Positions 10,009 to 55,616 of a stretch of 64,000 bases of DNA are shown piece by piece. Each line of letters begins with the position of its first letter. The first letter of the stretch is position 1. A program made the position numbers and the translations under genes. The notes beneath the pieces are model-generated. The model saw nothing but the letters and a program-made list of their open reading frames with translations, searched no databases and was not told where the DNA came from. This DNA comes from an uncultured Clostridia bacterium (GTDB taxonomy: Bacteria > Bacillota > Clostridia > Christensenellales > UBA1242). The stretch covers positions 1 to 64,000 of the forward strand of contig CALWFB010000003.1 in the NCBI GenBank assembly GCA_944377485.1. Direction: 5' to 3'.

Positions 10009-12087
10009 ATGAAAATTGTCTTTATAGAAGGACCAGGTAAGCGTGATACAATTAAAAAGTATCTCGGCGCAGAATATTTAGTATATCCCACAAAGGGACA
10101 CATTAGAGATTTGCCAGCCAAGAGTTTTGCAATTGATATAGACCACGGATATGAACCAACTTATGAAATCATACCAGAAAAAAAAGCATTAGTTGAAGAT
10201 TTGAAAAAACGAGCGCAAAATGCAGAAGCAATATATTTAGCTACCGACCCAGATAGAGAGGGGGAAGCAATTGCTTGGCATTTGGCGACTATTTTAAATC
10301 TAGATAAAGATGCATTGGTTAGAACAGCATTTAATGAAATTAGTAAAAAGGCAATTCAAGAGAGTATATCAAATCCAAAACCAATAAATTACGATTTGGT
10401 TAACGCACAACAAGGTAGACGAGTTTTAGATAGAATAATGGGATATAAATTAAGTCCATTATTGTCACAAAAAATTCATGGCAAATTAAGTGCTGGGCGT
10501 GTCCAATCTGTCACACTAAAACTAGTTGTGGACAGAGAAAAGGCAATCAAATCTTTTGTTCCAGTAGAATATTGGAATGTGGTAGCGGAACTGAGAAAAA
10601 ATGAGCAAAAATTCAAGGCAGATTTAATTCAATTTCAGGATAAAAAATTAGAAATCCCAAACAAAGAAGCAGTAGATAAAATTCTTACTAATATCGAAAA
10701 TGCTGAATACAAAGTATCATCAGTAAAAAGACAGGTGACATATTCAAAACCGCCAGCTCCATATATAACAAGTAGTTTACAACAAGACGCATTGTCAAAA
10801 TTGAAAATGACTTTAAATGCATATACAAAATGCGTTCAATCTTTGTATGAAGGTATTATGATACAGGGAGAAGGAAAGACCGCATTAGTCACTTATATAA
10901 GAACGGACTCTACACGAGTTAGTCTAGATGCTCAATTTATGGCGAAAGATTATATATTAAATAATTATGGAGAGAAGTATGCTCCGAAGAAATTTAATGA
11001 ATATTCATCAAAAGAAAATGCCCAAGATGCACACGAAGCCATTAGACCAATAAATTTAAAATACACTCCTGAATATTTAAAAGGTAAAATAGATGAACAA
11101 TATTTAAAACTCTATACAATGATTTTCAAGAGATTTATTGCTAGTCAAATGACGTTTGCTCAATATGATAGTTTAACTGTCGATATCCTTGCAAACGAGT
11201 ATAAATTTAGAGCAAGTGGGAAGGCTTTAATATTTGATGGTTATACAAAAGTTTTGAAAATTCAAGATGAAGAAAAAAATGGAATTAATATTCCAGATTT
11301 AGAAGAGAATGAAATTGTAATCAAAGATAAAATTGTGACAGAACAAAAATTCACTCGTCCACCAAATAGATTTACAGAATCCACACTAATTAAAGAGATG
11401 GAAGTTCAGGGCATAGGTAGACCAGCAACATATGCATCTACTATTATGACTTTATTTAATAGAAATTATATAAAGACTGAGAAAAAAGCACTTGTACCGA
11501 CTGAGTTAGGTATCCAAGTGACCGAATATTTAGAAGAATATTTTAAAAATGAAATGGATATAAAATTTACTGCCGATATGGAAAAACAACTAGATGATGT
11601 TGAATTGGGTAAAGTGAAATGGCAAAATATTGTTGATAATTTTTATAAAGATTTTAGTAAACAATTAGATTATGCTAGTCAACAAGCAGGAATTACTCTA
11701 CAAAAATCCGAACCAATTCCTAGTGATATTAAGTGTGATAAGTGCGGTGCAATGATGGTTTATAGAGATGGAAAATTTGGTAAATTTTTAGCATGTTCAA
11801 ATTTCCCTCAATGCAAAAACACAAAAAATATCAATCAAGTAAAATTTGATATTAAAGAGACGGGTATATGTCCAAAATGTGGCGGAACAGTTGAAGCAAA
11901 ATATAGTAAGCGAGGCAAATTATTCTTTGGTTGTTCTAATTATCCAAAGTGTGATTATGCATCTTGGGATTTACCAATTAACGAAAAATGTCCAAAATGT
12001 AATAGCGGATTGTTTAAAAAGTTTAATAAGAATGGTACAACAACAATTTTATGCAACAATAAAGGATGTACTTATGTTAAAGATTAA
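10009..12087 (+). CDS. topA: DNA topoisomerase I
   Basis: This type IA topoisomerase relaxes negative supercoils. The TOPRIM domain includes IEGPGK and DPDREGEAIAWHL; the active-site tyrosine is in VTYIRTDSTR (about residue 296). Three C-terminal zinc ribbons are visible (CDKCGAMM...CSNFPQC, CPKCGG...CSNYPKC, CPKCNSG...CNNKGC). Length 692 aa. A TATAAT at 9955-9960 is a likely -10 box, and AAGGAGCTAT precedes the start. It overlaps trmFO by 14 nt. Confidence 0.97.
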   Translation: MKIVFIEGPGKRDTIKKYLGAEYLVYPTKGHIRDLPAKSFAIDIDHGYEPTYEIIPEKKALVEDLKKRAQNAEAIYLATDPDREGEAIAWHLATILNLDKDALVRTAFNEISKKAIQESISNPKPINYDLVNAQQGRRVLDRIMGYKLSPLLSQKIHGKLSAGRVQSVTLKLVVDREKAIKSFVPVEYWNVVAELRKNEQKFKADLIQFQDKKLEIPNKEAVDKILTNIENAEYKVSSVKRQVTYSKPPAPYITSSLQQDALSKLKMTLNAYTKCVQSLYEGIMIQGEGKTALVTYIRTDSTRVSLDAQFMAKDYILNNYGEKYAPKKFNEYSSKENAQDAHEAIRPINLKYTPEYLKGKIDEQYLKLYTMIFKRFIASQMTFAQYDSLTVDILANEYKFRASGKALIFDGYTKVLKIQDEEKNGINIPDLEENEIVIKDKIVTEQKFTRPPNRFTESTLIKEMEVQGIGRPATYASTIMTLFNRNYIKTEKKALVPTELGIQVTEYLEEYFKNEMDIKFTADMEKQLDDVELGKVKWQNIVDNFYKDFSKQLDYASQQAGITLQKSEPIPSDIKCDKCGAMMVYRDGKFGKFLACSNFPQCKNTKNINQVKFDIKETGICPKCGGTVEAKYSKRGKLFFGCSNYPKCDYASWDLPINEKCPKCNSGLFKKFNKNGTTTILCNNKGCTYVKD

Positions 12088-45043: not shown

Positions 45044-46090
45044 TTATTCTTCTTTGAGCTTAACTTTGCCTGCAACAGAACGCCTTATGTCATCGCTAAT
45101 AGCCGCATAATGTTTTTTAGTAGTATTTACATCTTTATGACCTAAAACTTCTGCTACAATATATATGTCTTTTGTTTGATTATATAAATTTGTACCATAC
45201 GTTGAACGCAATTTATGTGGTGTAATATTTTTTAATGGGGTAGCGACTTTGGCATATTTTTTGACTAAATATTCCATTGCTCGAACTCCCATACGCTTAC
45301 CTTGACTAGATATAAACAAGGCTTGTTCTTCTTTCGGCAAATTCAAACTTTCTCGATATTGCAAATAATCTTTTAAAATATCAGCAGTTTCCTCGCCAAA
45401 ATAGAGTATAACTTGATTGCCTCCTTTTCGAGTGACACGAAATGAATTTAAATTAAAATTAATGTCATCTATATTTAGTCCAACACATTCACTAACACGT
45501 ATCCCAGTGGTTAAAAACAATGAAAGAATAGCATTATCACGAACTTTAAACTTTTCATTGTATTTTTTTTGATGTTCAGGGAATCCAGATAAGGTATCAC
45601 ACGAATATAATAATTCTGCGGTTTCTTGTGCTTCTAAACGTACAATAGGTTTGTCATGAAGCTTGGGAGAAGCTACTTTTGATGCAACGTTAGCTTTTAT
45701 CATATCTTTATTAAATAAATATTTAAAGAATGCTCTTAAACTTGACAATTTACGCAATTTCCCACGTTCACCATTTGTTATGACTGTTCCATTATCTTTA
45801 TCATAATATGATAAATATGCCATGTATCGCTCAATTAAATGTGAATCAATATTGTCAATATCATTTAATGTTATGTCTATAATTTTTTTATTAAAACAAA
45901 TGGTTTCATATGTTGTTAAATAATTAAAAAAAGTCTTTAAATCAATTGCATAATTTATTCGAGTGAGTGGGGTAGTAGTATCCTGAATACCTATGAAAAA
46001 AATACTGCAAAATGCTGGTAATTCAGTTAGCATTTCATTTAATTTGCGCATATTGTTTCTGTTTCTATCAAGATAATAATTATTTGACAT
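45044..46090 (-). CDS. Tyrosine recombinase, probable single-type Xer (XerS/XerH-like)
   Basis: The catalytic residues are complete: R in TGIRVSECVGL, K in TRKGGNQ, HxxR in TPHKLRSTYG, H in LGHKDV, and Y in TTKKHYAAIS. At 348 aa it is longer than XerC/XerD (about 300) and close to XerS and XerH, which act alone on dif. The start at 46090 is chosen because AAAGGA lies 9 nt before it; the ATG 9 nt upstream touches that site. It lies 4.1 kb from the palindromic dif-like site and is the only tyrosine recombinase here, so it is the likely agent of the prophage's insertion. The exact Xer subtype is inferred. Confidence 0.85.
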   Translation of the reverse strand: MSNNYYLDRNRNNMRKLNEMLTELPAFCSIFFIGIQDTTTPLTRINYAIDLKTFFNYLTTYETICFNKKIIDITLNDIDNIDSHLIERYMAYLSYYDKDNGTVITNGERGKLRKLSSLRAFFKYLFNKDMIKANVASKVASPKLHDKPIVRLEAQETAELLYSCDTLSGFPEHQKKYNEKFKVRDNAILSLFLTTGIRVSECVGLNIDDINFNLNSFRVTRKGGNQVILYFGEETADILKDYLQYRESLNLPKEEQALFISSQGKRMGVRAMEYLVKKYAKVATPLKNITPHKLRSTYGTNLYNQTKDIYIVAEVLGHKDVNTTKKHYAAISDDIRRSVAGKVKLKEE

Positions 46091-46119
46091 AAATAACATT
46101 CCTTTTATTTTACAAATAT

Positions 46120-48055: not shown

Positions 48056-49135
48056 ATGATGATAAACATTGATAAAATTGTAAAACTTTATAGAAAAGAT
48101 GGCATAACGAATAATCTAATCAAATTATTAAAAATTGATAAATCTGATGCCTTAAACTTTAAACTTTTAAATCAGCTTCCAGATGATGTGAAAAACAATA
48201 TTTTTAAAACTCTAAAATATTATCTCCTCCAACATTTATATGATAACTATCTTGATGATGAATCCATCAAATTTTACAAAAATTTGAACAAATCACAAAT
48301 AGATTATTTAATTGAGCAAATTGGTAGTCCAATTCATAAATATGGCGAAAGCAAATCTAAATTAATTGAGAATATAAAAATCATTAATAATTTAGATAAT
48401 GAGCAATTGTCACGATTATATAATATTATTTGTCAAGGACGTCGTCAAGAGCCTCTTGGATACATATTGGAATATTATCCTTTATCAGATTTCAGCATTA
48501 AACAGATAAGCGAATTTGATAACATTTGTTTTGAAGATATAAATAATTGTATTCATATAATGATCTATTTAATGCGAAAAAATATATACTCAGCATATAA
48601 TAAAGAGTTGGAAATGAACGAAGGTATAGATACAATCTATAAAAAAATTGCTTCGCATTTTAGTTACAAAATGATTGCAAGTTTAAAAAAATATGAAAAC
48701 GAAAATTCATATTTGATAACTATATCATCTGAAGTCATTAAAATTTTATCTAAATATGTAAAAGAAAATCAAATTGAAATTTGTTATAATGATTCTATCA
48801 ATGTTAATGATTATTTGAGCATATTATATTTATTAAAAACTAATGCTAACTTAGATAGGAAAAAAGCTTACTCTGTTATTTTAACAAACTGTAATTCGTG
48901 TGAAATAGCGACATATTTAAAACTTTTAAAAACTTCAGATTTATCTGAATCAGAATTTTATGGGCTAGTTAGACAGGCTGGAAAAAAATATAATGGGGCA
49001 AGTAGAGATATAATAGCTCAAATCGACAGATTCAACTTGCCCGAAAAGTCAATTAAACAATTGTATATAGATATGTTTATCAACCTTGATACCGCAACTG
49101 AACGTGCACGCGAAAGTATGCTTGATTTTGATTGA
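48056..49135 (+). CDS. Hypothetical helical protein, 359 aa
   Basis: ATTAGGAGTATATG precedes a double Met start. The protein is soluble, Lys/Asn/Ile-rich and almost all helical, without signal or membrane segments. A small motif is repeated in style (LNKSQIDYLIEQIG and LDNEQLSRLYNII), as in helical-repeat proteins. I do not recognise the family. It has its own promoter and is the last host gene before the gene-free stretch left of the dif-like site. Confidence 0.65.
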   Translation: MMINIDKIVKLYRKDGITNNLIKLLKIDKSDALNFKLLNQLPDDVKNNIFKTLKYYLLQHLYDNYLDDESIKFYKNLNKSQIDYLIEQIGSPIHKYGESKSKLIENIKIINNLDNEQLSRLYNIICQGRRQEPLGYILEYYPLSDFSIKQISEFDNICFEDINNCIHIMIYLMRKNIYSAYNKELEMNEGIDTIYKKIASHFSYKMIASLKKYENENSYLITISSEVIKILSKYVKENQIEICYNDSINVNDYLSILYLLKTNANLDRKKAYSVILTNCNSCEIATYLKLLKTSDLSESEFYGLVRQAGKKYNGASRDIIAQIDRFNLPEKSIKQLYIDMFINLDTATERARESMLDFD

Positions 49136-50086: not shown

Positions 50087-50174
50087 TGTGGATAACTAAA
50101 CAAATGATATGTCATAATATGTCATATATATGATTATAAAATCGTATCGGTGGATAAATTATATGATTTCCACA
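50087..50174. promoter_or_regulatory. Cluster of DnaA-box-like sequences
   Basis: TGTGGATAA (50087-50095) is a perfect DnaA box on the minus strand. GGTGGATAA (50149-50157) has one mismatch and ATTTCCACA (50166-50174) two. No dnaA or other origin genes are nearby. Confidence 0.4.
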
Positions 50175-50196
50175 AGATTTTTTTCAATTTTTTGTC

Positions 50197-50232
50197 TATC
50201 TTTTCGCAAAAGAAGTGTTTTGCGAAAAGATA
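50197..50232. other. Palindromic dif-like Xer recombination site
   Basis: Arms TATCTTTTCGCAAAA and TTTTGCGAAAAGATA are perfect 15-bp inverted copies around the 6-bp centre GAAGTG (50212-50217). The core 11-6-11 layout (50201-50228) is that of dif, with inner halves GCAAAA-N6-TTTTGC comparable to GCATAA-N6-TTATGT of E. coli dif. The prophage repeat starts exactly at the centre. After insertion this copy is the complete one. Confidence 0.8.
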
Positions 50233-50277
50233 TGAATATAAATTTGCACACTTCCCTACATTCTTCCACATAGATAC
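50212..50277 (+). repeat. Left attachment repeat of the prophage
   Basis: 66 bp shared with 55551-55616; the only difference is A at 50235 versus G at 55574. It consists of the 6-bp Xer centre, the right arm TTTTGCGAAAA and 49 more bases ending in CATAGATAC. The VP4 stop codon begins at the next base. Confidence 0.95.
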
Positions 50278-51357
50278 CTAATCTTTTAATCCTCGCTTTA
50301 AAGACTTTACTTGCGCCATCTTATTACGCTCTTTCACAGCTAAATACTCGCTCTCATTTAAGTCAGTACGCATCAACTGCTCTTTCATTGACTCTTTAGC
50401 TCGCTCTGCCCTACGGACTTTAATGTCTTTCATAACAAAAGGATTAACATTTTCTAAATCGTACATTTTATCAAAATATCTAGGGGGCTTTATTGTTCGA
50501 ACTTTGCCACGAACCGACAATACAATCTCGTCTGTCGCATAAAACTCATGCTTATTCTCATCGTAATACTTCCAGGCTATGCCAGGCATACGTGACATAC
50601 GAGTGAACTCAGGCACAAGACCTGACACTAAATTGCCACACAAGTCAACAAGTCCCTTTGTTGTACCTTTCTGCTTCTTGACAACATATCGGGCAACGTA
50701 AGCACAACTATTCCATGTCAACTCACCTAACGAACAAATGCCTTTCTTCCAAATCTTATTTTGCAAGATATCGCTATGATAGATTTTTTCATGTTGGTCC
50801 GTTGTAAACCAATACTGCAAATCCGGTAATGGTGGCAAGTTAAATGCTAAGATGTGAAAATGAGGTCTTCCACCAATGCTACCATATTCACCACAAGCAT
50901 AAAACCGAATACCTGTCCAATTATAATGATATTCATAATAATCACGTAGTGCATCCATGAATTTCTTTAAATCGTCCGGAACTAAGGACGGCCACATAAA
51001 GATTTCGCCGGTTTCTACGTTTATGCATTCTTTGAGCGGTGGCAAATGCTCCGGGTCATATGTTAAGGTTATAAATGCATTATGCTTATACTGTTGGGCC
51101 TCCAACATGCATCTATCTGCCCATGTACGAGAATAATCTAGCCTACAACCTATACACTGTCCGCAAGGTACAGGAAACCAGTCAGTAATCCATTGATCCT
51201 GCCATACTTTCTTATATGAACGCTTAACTCCGTTTCTAACATATTGATATGGAGCATGTATACGTTCTACGTTAGGGCCACATATTTTATACTTAGGCTT
51301 AAAGTTATCAGTCAAAAGACCGGTATCAAATGCACGCAATGGGTGATAACATGACAT
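50278..51357 (-). CDS. Microvirus replication initiation protein VP4
   Basis: VP4 nicks the origin and starts rolling-circle replication. The HUH motif is RPHFHILAFNLP (about residues 152-163), the catalytic Tyr region is SCAYVARYVVKKQKG, and VPCGQCIGCRLDYSRTWADRC is the gokushovirus N-terminal signature. Length 359 aa, slightly long. TGGAGTAAATCAA precedes the start. Its stop codon abuts the left attachment repeat. Confidence 0.96.
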   Translation of the reverse strand: MSCYHPLRAFDTGLLTDNFKPKYKICGPNVERIHAPYQYVRNGVKRSYKKVWQDQWITDWFPVPCGQCIGCRLDYSRTWADRCMLEAQQYKHNAFITLTYDPEHLPPLKECINVETGEIFMWPSLVPDDLKKFMDALRDYYEYHYNWTGIRFYACGEYGSIGGRPHFHILAFNLPPLPDLQYWFTTDQHEKIYHSDILQNKIWKKGICSLGELTWNSCAYVARYVVKKQKGTTKGLVDLCGNLVSGLVPEFTRMSRMPGIAWKYYDENKHEFYATDEIVLSVRGKVRTIKPPRYFDKMYDLENVNPFVMKDIKVRRAERAKESMKEQLMRTDLNESEYLAVKERNKMAQVKSLKRGLKD

Positions 51358-51636
51358 TTGATTTACTCCATTTTTTATATTTTTTGGGGTAATTTTTAGA
51401 AAATTCCCCCAGTCAGCACAATTACATCAAGAAACGTAATTGTGCTGACTGCTCACCTGCTCTGCAGTTTCGCAAAAAATTGAGGTGTTTTTTATTATAA
51501 AAATGACATTAATAAGCCCCGGGAAGAAGTCTCTTCCCGAAGCCCTGTAAATTATATCGCTATCGCTTTGTCAAGGGGTGAACATAAACCGCTGTCGCTA
51601 TTTATCCTTCCCCTTTTCCTTGACATTCGCTCTCGC
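51358..51636. other. Prophage intergenic region, candidate origin
   Basis: This 279-bp stretch between VP2 and VP4 has a perfect 16-bp stem (CAGTCAGCACAATTAC at 51410-51425 with 51436-51451), a perfect 8-bp stem (CGGGAAGA/TCTTCCCG, 51520-51539), an 8-bp outer pair (TGTCAAGG 51569, CCTTGACA 51618), and three copies of CGCTNTCGCT (51558, 51590, 51628). GTTTCGCAAAA (51467-51477) resembles a dif arm. Stems and iteron-like repeats near rep suggest a replication origin; this is not proven. Confidence 0.55.
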
Positions 51637-52032
51637 TTATTTTAAATGTTTAACTAGTTTTTCAGCTGTACCAATTAATCGACCACTAGCATCATAAATT
51701 TGTTGAGTAGTCTCTCTATCGATATTACGATTGTTCGTTAAACTTGCAGCTGAATGAATAATATCTGAAATTCCAGACAATACACTAGAATTTAAAGATG
51801 CAGCACTACTAATTGGATTACCTGCACTACTACCAACACTTGAACCACCAGCAGAAAGCATAGGATTTAAGCCTGCATTTTTCATATCTTCAACTTCAAT
51901 TTGATGTGCACTACTCTTTCCTGTTATTCTATTCCATTTATCACCAATCCAATCGGCAGCAGAAGTTATTCCATCATTAATCATTTCACCAGCATTCTTT
52001 AATCCTGTTTTAATATCATTCCATAAACCCAT
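51637..52032 (-). CDS. Microvirus minor protein VP2 (DNA pilot protein), short form
   Basis: VP2 delivers DNA through the host envelope. The family motif is VEDMKNAGLNPMLSAGGSS (about residues 47-65), followed by the small-residue-rich region and a helical tail. At 131 aa it is about half the usual 230-300. I start it at ATG 52032, 5 nt after AGGAG, not at the GTG 6 nt upstream that overlaps that site. It lies 8 nt after VP1. Confidence 0.9.
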   Translation of the reverse strand: MGLWNDIKTGLKNAGEMINDGITSAADWIGDKWNRITGKSSAHQIEVEDMKNAGLNPMLSAGGSSVGSSAGNPISSAASLNSSVLSGISDIIHSAASLTNNRNIDRETTQQIYDASGRLIGTAEKLVKHLK

Positions 52033-52040
52033 ACTCACTC

Positions 52041-53684
52041 CTAGTTATGGTCAATAAGGCCTGGAACGCTATAAACTGGCATTGGTCTAACTGATTTGAT
52101 ATTAAAGTAAAAGTCTGCTATAAATTGGTCCTCTACACTTGATTGTACAGCTAACGTACGGTCAATATTAGTTTGTGAAGCTCTAATAAAAGCATCTGAC
52201 AAAACTGGAAGACTCTCATAATAATCAGCATAATGCCAACTATCCAAAGATGTCTGATAATTGCTTCTAAATGCACCACTAACTCTACTAGGCTTGTACC
52301 TATATTCTGCCCAGGGCTCTTGATAACCAAACACTTCGTCATCTTCACTAGTACCTTGTGCATATATCTCTTTGTTAAAGATAGGTTGTTCAGATATATT
52401 TGCTAAGGCTGGCCAATAAAAATCAAAACGTCTTTTTCTAGACCAAAATTTTTCAACGCCTTGTTGATATGTGTTTTCATTTCTAACACAAACAAAACAG
52501 TAAAGATAACCGTGTTCAGTGAATGATTTTGTAAAGCTGTCTGAACTATCGCCAGTCAATGAGTATGCAGCTGTATTACCTTGTGGTGATGTACTATCTG
52601 TCGATGATGTCTGCACAACTTGTGTCACATTGATTGGAATACGCTTTCCGCCTAAGTACTCTGAACGTTGCAAACGACCGTCTGGTGATGATACTCCAAA
52701 GTGAGATTTTAAAATCTCAGTATAACGTGTACCACCTCGTGCATCACGTTCGTAAAGTCTTTGAACTGCAAAGGCCTGTCTAAGTTGAGAAACTGTTGAT
52801 GCTGTTGCTTCTGACAAATCTGCATAAAGATTGTTTGGTACATAAACTTCGTTATTTACAATAGTATTCTGACTATTACGTGCAGTAGATCCTTCATTAT
52901 TAATACCTAAACCTGTTGAAGATGTCACTAACACGTCATCTGAATAACTCCATTTTAATGGCGTTGAACGACCAGCAATTGATCGCACATCTCCTGTATA
53001 GACCTCTGCTCTCTCGCCTAGTGGCAACAATACGTCCGGTCCTTTTTGTGGCTCAGGTAGAGCACTAGTAAAATAGTCATGATATTTAGCAACAGGTAAT
53101 GGCATACCACCGGCTATTGCATCAGACACATAATTAGTGCCGTTAGTACCAGTTGTATCACTATCTCCTAGATCCAAATATGCTGGGGTCTGCAAATTTT
53201 GGTCACGGAACCAATCGTTCCAAACCTTAACAACACCTCTGAAAGGTAAATGATTTTTCGAATAATCACCTGTGAATGTCACATTCGTTGGTAAACCTAA
53301 ATAATCAGCAATAGTACCCTTAATCCAACCGCCATTTGGAGAATTTATTTGAGGTATCTCATACTCTGTTGGCTGTGTCCAAAAGGTATCGTCATTAGAA
53401 CCATTAAATGCTTCCCAGTGCTCCCATAATAGACGAATTGGGACGAAATAGTAGTAAATATCTGCATATAAGTTGTCCATTGTTGGATAAATTGGAGTTG
53501 ACATACGTATAACACTTGACGTACGTACACTAAATGTATCACCAGGTAAAACTTCGTCACATAATATTGGTATAAATTTACCAGCATTAAATGTAGTTTT
53601 ATGTTGAGTCGAACGGTCAAAAACTGAACGTTTAACATCAATTTTGGGAACTTGTGCAAAATGCACCTCTGAATTTCTATTCAT
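52041..53684 (-). CDS. Microvirus major capsid protein VP1
   Basis: The F-type capsid protein of gokushoviruses. It opens [23 protein letters not shown], a family signature, with [51 protein letters not shown] as the beta-barrel start (written here in part) and ends in [16 protein letters not shown]. Length 547 aa is normal. GGAGGTACAACTA precedes the start, inside the end of VP3. Confidence 0.98.
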
Positions 53685-54240
53685 TAGTTGTACCTCCTGT
53701 TGTCACTTGCGGTGACTGTATAGTAGTTTTATTATCAACTACTGGCTGTTGCGTAGTTTTATTATCAACTACTGGCTGTTGCACTGTTGATTGATTGACT
53801 AAATCAGCAGCCTTTTCTTGGGCCTTAAAATATGAATGCCGCTCTGCAAGCTTGCCGGCACTAGCACTGGCTAAAAACTCGCTAAAACTGTGGTTAAACT
53901 CTGCCCTAACATCTAATGGCAAGTTATTAAAATAATTCTCAGCTGTAATGAGTGATTGCTGTGCCTCTGCTAAGGTCTTAGGCATTTCTGTCAAATCTGC
54001 ATAATAACCTTGATGTTTTTGCAATACGCTAACATCACCAGCTGAAAAACGGTCCAAAATGTTATAAATAAGAGTATCATCTTTGCTAGCCTGTATTTTC
54101 TCATAAAGATTAGTTTTGCCGGTTTCTACGACATGGACTTTGCCGTCTTTATCTATCTCTTTGCCATATGTAGGAACTATCTTCTCACATTTGGGCTGAG
54201 CAATAGTTGTCGGTTTGTTTATTCTTGAATAAAACTCCAT
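53677..54240 (-). CDS. Microvirus internal scaffolding protein VP3
   Basis: VP3 assists capsid assembly. Charged and helical, with [22 protein letters not shown] and [19 protein letters not shown], typical of gokushovirus VP3. At 187 aa it is longer than usual; the tail carries two copies of [27 protein letters not shown] precedes the start. It overlaps VP1 by 8 nt. Confidence 0.92.
53723..53782 (-). repeat. Perfect 30-bp tandem repeat in VP3
   Basis: Two identical 30-bp units (53723-53752, 53753-53782) encode [10 protein letters not shown] twice. Perfect identity suggests recent slippage. Confidence 0.9.
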
Positions 54241-54243
54241 ACT

Positions 54244-54498
54244 CTACTCGCTCCTTTTGATTATACAATCAACTGCTCGAACCAAAAACTCTGGCTCAGT
54301 ACCTTCGATTTTACCGGTGCGTTCGTCAAACGTTCCCAGGAACCAAAGTTCTTTGTCTTCTGGAAAATCGTTAACCGCATTTGACTGAACTTCATTTGCT
54401 GCTTTTTTAAATGAACGAATTGCGATATCGTCATTTTGCAAATAAAATGGGCTCATATACCCGGCTTTTGTGTCTTTTATACAATATATATTTAACAT
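54244..54498 (-). CDS. Microvirus non-structural protein VP5
   Basis: A small protein proposed to bind single-stranded DNA. The layout MLNIYCIKDTKAGYMSPFYL, NDDIAIRSFKKAANE, DFPEDKELWFLGTFDERTGKIE matches gokushovirus VP5. Length 84 aa. AGAGGAGAATAAATT precedes the start. It lies 3 nt before VP3. Confidence 0.88.
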   Translation of the reverse strand: MLNIYCIKDTKAGYMSPFYLQNDDIAIRSFKKAANEVQSNAVNDFPEDKELWFLGTFDERTGKIEGTEPEFLVRAVDCIIKRSE

Positions 54499-54501
54499 AA
54501 T

Positions 54502-54669
54502 TTATTCTCCTCTAATTTTTAATTTTTTTAACTCTCGCTCTACGGCGATTTTACTTAAATCACTTTTTAGCTCGTCAAATATGTTATACATTTCAACTAA
54601 GGTAAAGTGCAAACCTTCAAATTTTTTGATTATTTCTAGCTTTAACTCTATTTTTTGAGAGTCTGTCAT
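54502..54669 (-). CDS. Small helical prophage protein, 55 aa
   Basis: The start at 54669 overlaps the J-like gene's stop by 4 nt (ATGA). The sequence is one amphipathic helix, from MTDSQKIELKLEIIKKFEGL to the C-terminal ELKKLKIRGE. It ends 3 nt before VP5 and is tightly packed in the operon, which supports it as real. Function unknown. Confidence 0.75.
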   Translation of the reverse strand: MTDSQKIELKLEIIKKFEGLHFTLVEMYNIFDELKSDLSKIAVERELKKLKIRGE

Positions 54670-54785
54670 AGTCGTATACCACCACGCATTGGCGCAGGGT
54701 CAACGTTAATCTTTTTCCCTTTGCTAGCAGTTCGCTTAAATATCTTTGAGTCTATGCTAGCTCTAGCTTTCTTTCGTTTCGCCAC
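54666..54785 (-). CDS. J-like DNA-packaging basic protein, 39 aa
   Basis: A very basic peptide from a GTG start (54785) with a strong ribosome binding site (GAGGAGGTAGTAA). It begins AKRKKARASIDSKIFKRTAS and ends DPAPMRGGIRL. The C-terminal PMRGGxRL with a Lys/Arg-rich body is typical of the small gokushovirus packaging protein. It overlaps the preceding 78-aa gene by 23 nt. Confidence 0.88.
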   Translation of the reverse strand: MAKRKKARASIDSKIFKRTASKGKKINVDPAPMRGGIRL

Positions 54786-54999
54786 TTACTACCTCCTCAC
54801 TCGATGTTATTTGGACATTTTGAATGCCATTCTTTTTACACTGCTTCTCGACATAAGCAGCATAGAGCTTGTCGGCTTCGGCTTTAATTTCTTCTACCGA
54901 CTTGGTGATTTTAGTCTTGCCTTTGATAAATGCCACGATTGTGGCCAGGATAGACAAAACCACTGGTGCGACTTCAATAATTAGTTCGACAATTTCCAT
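54763..54999 (-). CDS. Prophage membrane protein with an N-terminal helix, 78 aa
   Basis: One membrane helix (IVELIIEVAPVVLSILATIVAFI, residues 3-25) is followed by a charged helix (KITKSVEEIKAEADKLYAAYVEKQ) and a polar tail. It is the first gene of the structural operon, just after the lytic promoter. AAAGGAGTGTTTT precedes the start. Holin-like or envelope-acting roles are possible but not shown. Confidence 0.82.
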   Translation of the reverse strand: MEIVELIIEVAPVVLSILATIVAFIKGKTKITKSVEEIKAEADKLYAAYVEKQCKKNGIQNVQITSSEEVVSGETKES

Positions 55000-55014
55000 A
55001 AAACACTCCTTTTA

Positions 55015-55089
55015 AGAACTTTTAGTTCTAATTAAATCTTAGACTAAAAAATTCTAAAAGTCAAGAATTTTTAGTTCTTATGATAAAAT
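55015..55089. promoter_or_regulatory. Divergent lysogeny-switch region with three operators
   Basis: Three 15-bp operator-like sites: O1 AGAACTTTTAGTTCT (55015-55029, perfect palindrome), O2 AGACTAAAAAATTCT (55041-55055), O3 AGAATTTTTAGTTCT (55064-55078). The minus-strand promoter is TTGACT (55059-55064), 17 bp, TAAGAT (55036-55041): O2 lies in its spacer, O3 touches its -35, O1 covers its start. The plus-strand promoter has -10 TAAAAT (55084-55089), 6 nt before the repressor ATG, with a weak -35 within O3. Confidence 0.8.
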
Positions 55090-55095
55090 TTATTT

Positions 55096-55365
55096 ATGTT
55101 CAAAAATCAATTAAAATTTTATAGAAACCAAATGGGATATACTCAACAACAAGTTGCGGATTATCTTTGCATCTCACAAAGAACATATGCTCATTATGAA
55201 ACCGGAAAACACGAACCAAATATAGATACTATTAAAAAACTATGTATACTATTTAACTGCACGTCTGACGAACTACTAGAAATCGATACTGAAAAAGACA
55301 GACAAAAAGTACAAATCAATAATAGTTTCAATAATAGTAAGAATATAAAGGTTAAAATTAAATAG
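55096..55365 (+). CDS. XRE/CI-family prophage repressor, 89 aa
   Basis: Residues 5-62 form a helix-turn-helix: KFYRNQMGYTQQQVADYLCI, then SQRTYAHYETGKHEPNIDTI, and KKLCILFNCTSDELLEI. There is no self-cleavage domain, so RecA-dependent cleavage is not expected. The mRNA is probably leaderless, like cI of phage lambda from PRM. The three operators lie just upstream. Microviruses are usually lytic; a repressor fits the integrated state. Confidence 0.88.
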   Translation: MFKNQLKFYRNQMGYTQQQVADYLCISQRTYAHYETGKHEPNIDTIKKLCILFNCTSDELLEIDTEKDRQKVQINNSFNNSKNIKVKIK

Positions 55366-55373
55366 GAGGATAT

Positions 55374-55505
55374 ATGACAATTTTCGGATTTATACTAACA
55401 ATACTATTTGCTGTAGCAATGGTTGCAATAATTAAAATTAATAAGAAAATGAATACAATAATCGAACTAATGCAGAAAAAATCAGAAGATAAAAAAGAAG
55501 AGTAG
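55374..55505 (+). CDS. Small single-pass membrane protein downstream of the repressor, 43 aa
   Basis: A good ribosome binding site (AGGAGGATAT) precedes MTIFGFILTILFAVAMVAII, one membrane helix, followed by a charged Lys/Glu tail. It is co-transcribed with the repressor and ends at a terminator. It would be expressed in the lysogen, so a role in superinfection exclusion is possible; this is inference from position. Confidence 0.75.
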   Translation: MTIFGFILTILFAVAMVAIIKINKKMNTIIELMQKKSEDKKEE

Positions 55506-55528
55506 GCACTAACCTACTCTCTTTTTTT
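55499..55528 (+). terminator. Terminator of the repressor transcript
   Basis: AGAGTAGG and CCTACTCT pair around a 6-nt loop, followed by CTTTTTTT. Confidence 0.85.
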
Positions 55529-55550
55529 ACAATACACGTATTTCGAATGT

Positions 55551-55616
55551 GAAGTGTTTTGCGAAAAGATATGGATATAAATTTGCACACTTCCCTACAT
55601 TCTTCCACATAGATAC
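55551..55616 (+). repeat. Right attachment repeat of the prophage
   Basis: The second copy of the 66-bp repeat. The bases to its left (ATTTCGAATGT, 55540-55550) are a poor version of the left dif arm, as expected if they came from the phage attachment site. Confidence 0.95.

Follow-up and report, generated by a model that had tools for sequence, protein, structure and literature searches.

A gokushovirus prophage with a predicted repressor and candidate operators at the probable dif site of a Clostridia chromosome

Results

Gene content and boundaries of the prophage

The window, a stretch of 64,000 nucleotides from an uncultured Clostridia bacterium (contig CALWFB010000003.1), contains a complete gokushovirus gene set between two copies of a 66-bp direct repeat (50212–50277 and 55551–55616), which are spaced 5,339 bp apart and differ at one position (50235 A, 55574 G). 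All prophage genes are open, and the gokushovirus genes, which are encoded on the minus strand, are arranged compatibly with the usual circular gokushovirus order. They encode the rolling-circle replication initiator VP4 (50278–51357; PF23343, 1.2e-17; phrog_942, 1.1e-105), the DNA pilot/minor capsid protein VP2 (51637–52038; assigned by gene position and several pilot-protein PHROGs, best 5.8e-13), the major capsid protein VP1 of the Phage_F family (52041–53684; PF02305, 4.4e-172), a Chlamydia-phage-type internal scaffolding protein VP3 (53677–54240; PF09675, 5.4e-33), the nonstructural/DNA-binding protein VP5 (54244–54498; PF20577, 9.8e-24; phrog_1670), and a J-like basic protein with homologues in most relatives (54666–54785; phrog_10695, 5.9e-9). 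The same strand carries a conserved 55-aa ORF (54502–54669; same-place homologues in the related prophages L002, 79%, and L003, 57%) and the first gene of the putative lytic operon, whose 78-aa product has a hydrophobic N-terminal stretch (54763–54999; homologues in L002, L003, L015, and L018). Divergent from these, on the plus strand, is a predicted XRE/HTH_3 repressor gene (55096–55365; PF01381, 3e-17) that was absent from the gene list of the first-pass annotation. It is followed by a co-directional 43-aa ORF with one hydrophobic stretch (55374–55505); a short, similar membrane-type ORF lies at the same place 3′ of the repressor in L002 (5681–5776), and this ORF could encode a superinfection-exclusion peptide.

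Profile searches against Pfam and PHROGs revealed no integrase among the phage ORFs. The G+C content is approximately 35–39% in the prophage versus mostly 23–35% in the remaining window. The first-pass annotation had described open VP1–VP5 and J-like genes between 66-bp direct repeats, in agreement with the repeat check, the ORFs, and the profile matches; the repeats themselves are present, but their reading as boundaries was amended to Xer-type attachment sites enclosing an integrated unit at 50212–55550.

Attachment sites

At the VP4 end, an apparently rebuilt chromosomal dif (50197–50232, TATCTTTTCGCAAAA GAAGTG TTTTGCGAAAAGATA) has perfect 15-bp arms around a 6-bp spacer; its 28-bp core (50201–50228) is a perfect 11-6-11 palindrome, TTTTCGCAAAA-GAAGTG-TTTTGCGAAAA. 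The second attachment site (55540–55616) consists of a degenerate phage half-arm (ATTTCGAATGT), the core GAAGTG, a host arm, and host flank, so that the half-site at 55540–55567 has a single good arm versus the full palindrome at the left end. The same kind of palindrome was found intact and empty in 15 phage-free congeners, in each case beside the same syntenic Met_gamma_lyase gene. The GC-skew of the window contig switches sign near the prophage; genome G181 shows the same switch at its own prophage, and the skew maximum lies at or near the prophage in both genomes, which places the replication terminus there. Because of the palindrome, the GC-skew switch, and the empty syntenic sites in the 15 congeners, the insertion site is very probably the host dif. 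The locus shows the features of Xer-integrated prophages (IMEX): insertion at dif, duplication of core plus arm, and the lack of an own integrase.

DnaA-site-like boxes (TGTGGA/TTATCCAC) occur at fixed distances on either side of dif in nearly all congeners (window 50090–50200; L059–L073), with a GTGGA box at −41/−42 in the congener flank and TGTGGA at +26 on the opposite side in 14 of 15. A 359-aa ORF adjoining the terminus (48056–49135) had no Pfam or NCBIfam match.

The phage-borne attP sequence (50218–50277) comprises the core, one dif arm, and approximately 45 bp beyond the arm. This outer flank is 98% identical to the copy of its own host (55568–55616) and ≤89% identical to those of other hosts. 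Phage and host flanks are also 96% alike in L003, compared with an average flank identity of 62% between host species; L002 is an exception, with a phage flank not matched to its host. Upon integration, the phage copy would become the new dif flank.

The host and its Xer recombinase

The host genome is a MAG of 1.02 Mb with 98.3% completeness. The only PF00589 gene found in it (45044–46099, minus strand) encodes a 351-aa Xer tyrosine recombinase approximately 4 kb from dif, the proposed integration enzyme, although a second recombinase gene could be missing from a MAG of this completeness. The prophage-bearing G181 and G191 likewise have one PF00589 gene each, and most congeners have an Xer orthologue located a few kb away from dif on its contig. 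The best curated model was XerS with 184 bits, below the 267-bit cut-off for equivalogs, and XerC/XerD scored nearly as high. A single Xer gene linked to dif is typical of XerS/difSL-like single-recombinase systems; the site itself has an 11-6-11 layout rather than the 31 bp with 11-bp centre of difSL. An FtsK gamma domain is present. The structure of the att sites and the presence of only one detected recombinase gene lead us to infer integration by the host's XerS-like enzyme. Genes for Spo0A and SpoIVA support the first-pass description of the host as a spore-former, and its family probably comprises spore-forming Clostridia with small genomes.

Related prophages

Phage_F genes were detected in nine of 197 genomes of the host family, distributed over six genera, and in only two of 396 genomes of an order-wide sample, both of this same family. 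Seven same-family loci share one architecture (the window, L002, L003, L014, L015, L017, and L018), in which the VP4 side bears a complete dif-like palindrome and the opposite side a poorer site or a half site; L017 was assessed up to its contig end, and the arms of L014 are imperfect at both ends. At L016, a dif-like palindrome adjoins VP4. The IMG/VR locus L089 is identical to L002 and was not counted as independent. The L017 contig (genome G166) ends within an 86-bp att repeat (11692–11777), as a tandem or a coexisting circle would give. The prophages of G194 initially seemed off-site; the marker order at L086 (G194:C12) and L003 fits an inversion about the terminus that, in this one species, put dif beside rny.

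In the VP1 tree, the window phage groups with phiMH2K and SpV4, a gokushovirus that infects Spiroplasma (support 93/99). Together with same-genus prophages in MAGs named Clostridiales or uncultured Clostridia, this supports the initial assignment to a gokushovirus-type prophage in a Clostridia-like chromosome. The phages with a repressor form one clade in the VP4 tree (100/100) and are left ungrouped by the VP1 tree alone; because of this difference, VP1 may have recombined. Structural gene lengths are conserved across the relatives, and a near relative, PQ007018, is deposited in GenBank as a 5.16-kb circle with repressor and attP. When IMG/VR was scanned for the attP arm as a DNA pattern, six contigs matched, none of which (0/6) had microvirus genes. 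The contig of L092, a gokushovirus from IMG/VR, additionally has a RadA-like gene as well as a further ORF of 127 aa, peptidase-like by eye.

Repressor and candidate operators

The window phage, L002, both copies in L003, and PQ007018, a free circle, carry the divergent XRE gene; the remaining prophages of the family yielded no homologue. The best match of its product was the NCBIfam RstR family with 61 bits, below the curated 80-bit cut-off of NF041951. The XRE gene of PQ006264 (39% identity, without the conserved tail) was kept separate from this group. Repressor scans of IMG/VR retrieved just a few HTH genes. An order-wide genome search returned many, of which the two best after that of the window (L171 and L172) had no microvirus genes alongside.

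Between the repressor and the lytic genes lies a promoter-like sequence (−35 at 55059–55064, −10 at 55036–55041) with one dyad in the −35/−10 spacer and another before the ribosome-binding box. Three candidate operators surround this putative lytic promoter within the predicted immunity region (55014–55079, minus strand): O1 at 55063–55079, O2 at 55040–55056, and O3 at 55014–55030. The O2 and O3 dyads recur at matching places in four phages, each with 23 of 28 paired positions, a value reached by none of 2000 dinucleotide shuffle sets. The underlying alignment was anchored on the ribosome-binding box and devised after inspection of the sequences; two of its phages are of one operator type, and L002 can be fitted only if its spacing is allowed to differ. 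An earlier test on single sequences gave weak or no support in some phages (window, p = 0.03; L002, p = 1). The half-site TAGAAC is found in the window phage and L003b, both of which have the recognition helix SQRTYAHYETGK; the half-sites are ATACC in L003a, ATAGCA in PQ007018, and, with longer spacing, TGATACA/TGTGTCA in L002. Among related phages carrying this module, the operator thus appears to vary with the recognition helix of the repressor.

L003 assembles as two tandem 5.2-kb phage copies, whose alignment of 5,239 columns contains 116 differences. With one exception, near the far att site, these fall between 6,250 and 6,800, the phage end that contains the att half-site, the repressor, and the operators. 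The two repressors agree at 24 of 43 positions in the HTH half and at 47 of 48 in the remainder. We read the copies as probable heteroimmune siblings, although an assembly-graph loop of an integrated copy and a free circle would look alike.

Discussion

In the proposed mechanism, the double-stranded replicative circle would carry one dif half-site and the host-matched flank, and the single XerS-like recombinase of the host would insert the circle into dif, at the terminus of replication. An intact dif module would thereby be restored on the VP4 side, and the host could go on resolving chromosome dimers. Once the phage is integrated, its XRE repressor would occupy operators within and behind the lytic promoter, silence the structural/replication operon, and also block phages of the same operator type; the circle would be released when the recombination at both sites runs in reverse. 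That the phage is repressed, confers immunity, excises, and makes particles, and which enzyme acts on it, is what we infer from sequence, and we consider the account as a whole, a temperate gokushovirus with Xer integration at dif, XRE-repressor lysogeny with immunity, and reversible excision, to be well founded and likely.

A free circle spliced by the assembler into an empty dif through the common att sequence would mimic such a prophage, as the 66-bp att repeat would be common to phage and empty host, and the L017 contig does end inside its repeat. The longest exact run between att copies is, however, 42 bp in the window and 17–39 bp in L002, L014, L015, and L018 (L003 and L017 are left out of this argument), and runs this short would not tangle most assembly graphs at the final k. 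The att copies of the window differ at one base and are therefore not one collapsed path. Assembly error is also unlikely because seven same-family loci, in different genomes and every one at dif, show the same architecture. Misassembly of a free 5.3-kb circle, which the first-pass annotation had named as its refuting case, is hence highly improbable given the short exact runs and the same junctions in four other genomes.

The prophage form alone was seen here, as expected for a dead or domesticated relic that no longer makes virions, but the open genes, the structural gene lengths kept across relatives, and the circular form of PQ007018 render a relic quite improbable. Somewhat less remote, yet still unlikely, is a different regulatory role of the XRE gene, e.g., as a Xer activation factor or an antitoxin-like protein: XRE proteins are diverse, weak matches to HipB-like proteins and the Xer recombination activation factor family were obtained, and repressor-free relatives still integrate at dif. 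The divergent layout, the dyads over the lytic promoter, an operator sequence that tracks the recognition helix, and the confinement of the L003 copy differences to the repressor/operator end argue instead for an immunity repressor.

The first-pass annotation had seen in this lysogen a tie of the group to a Gram-positive host; the novelty of that tie is softened by SpV4 with its Spiroplasma host. It is softened further by the complete microvirus prophages reported from Gram-positive isolates of Erysipelatoclostridium and Mammaliicoccus sciuri (Kirchberger 2022, PMC9239249), which are likewise complete prophages in Firmicutes, in isolates of other lineages; no account of regulation was found in that text, from which the word 'repressor' is absent. 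Integration of enterobacterial gokushoviruses at dif was published with experiments (Kirchberger and Ochman 2020, PMC7062461). Like the window phage, Enterogokushovirus EC6098 lacks an integrase and is bordered by an intact dif at one end and by a degenerate phage dif at the other. It differs in its Gram-negative host, in its need for the two recombinases XerC/XerD where a single one was detected here, and in a 28-bp dif as att, to which the window att adds the host-matched flank of approximately 45 bp; the main text does not contain the word 'repressor'. Integration of the Bacteroidetes microviruses BMV1–7 at dif-like sites, also without integrase, was reported by sequence (Krupovic and Forterre 2011, PMC3091885), with no mention of a repressor; they are not gokushoviruses and lack J/VP8 and VP5, whereas the window phage has VP5 and a J-like protein. 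CTXphi with RstR and other IMEX (see also PMC5357621) resemble what is predicted for the window phage in their small ssDNA genome, use of host Xer, and small XRE repressor, but CTXphi is filamentous with an unrelated capsid, and the window repressor matches the RstR model only below cut-off. XerS/difSL and XerH/difH (PMC5357621) resemble the host system in one recombinase gene near dif and arms of the TTTTC..GAAAA kind; difSL, however, has unequal arms about an 11-bp centre, in contrast to the perfect palindrome with 6-bp centre found here.

Prophages of microviruses, both at dif and in Gram-positives, have thus been published before, whereas the predicted repressor–operator immunity region and the predicted use of a single-recombinase Xer system by a microvirus appear new within the open-licence literature. 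In contrast to the microvirus prophages covered by that literature, the window phage has its own predicted repressor with matching candidate binding sites, which suggests a truly temperate virus with immunity groups. The broader proposition, for which the chances seem to us evenly balanced, is that microviruses include temperate phages with lambda/RstR-like immunity of several cassette-swapped types, and that these exploit a dif-linked single-recombinase Xer system needing a flanking accessory element, carried as a host-specific copy.

Gokushoviruses are common in gut metagenomes, yet for most of them little is known of host or life cycle. The locus ties one of their lineages to a family of Clostridia that have small genomes and probably form spores, and the host-matched dif flank in attP is a sequence tag that may assign hosts to free circles. 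The predicted lysis–lysogeny switch would be very small, and its operator types yield clear superinfection predictions. Finally, the dif module, with one recombinase and a near-perfect palindrome, offers a testable chromosome-dimer system beyond Streptococcus and Lactococcus.
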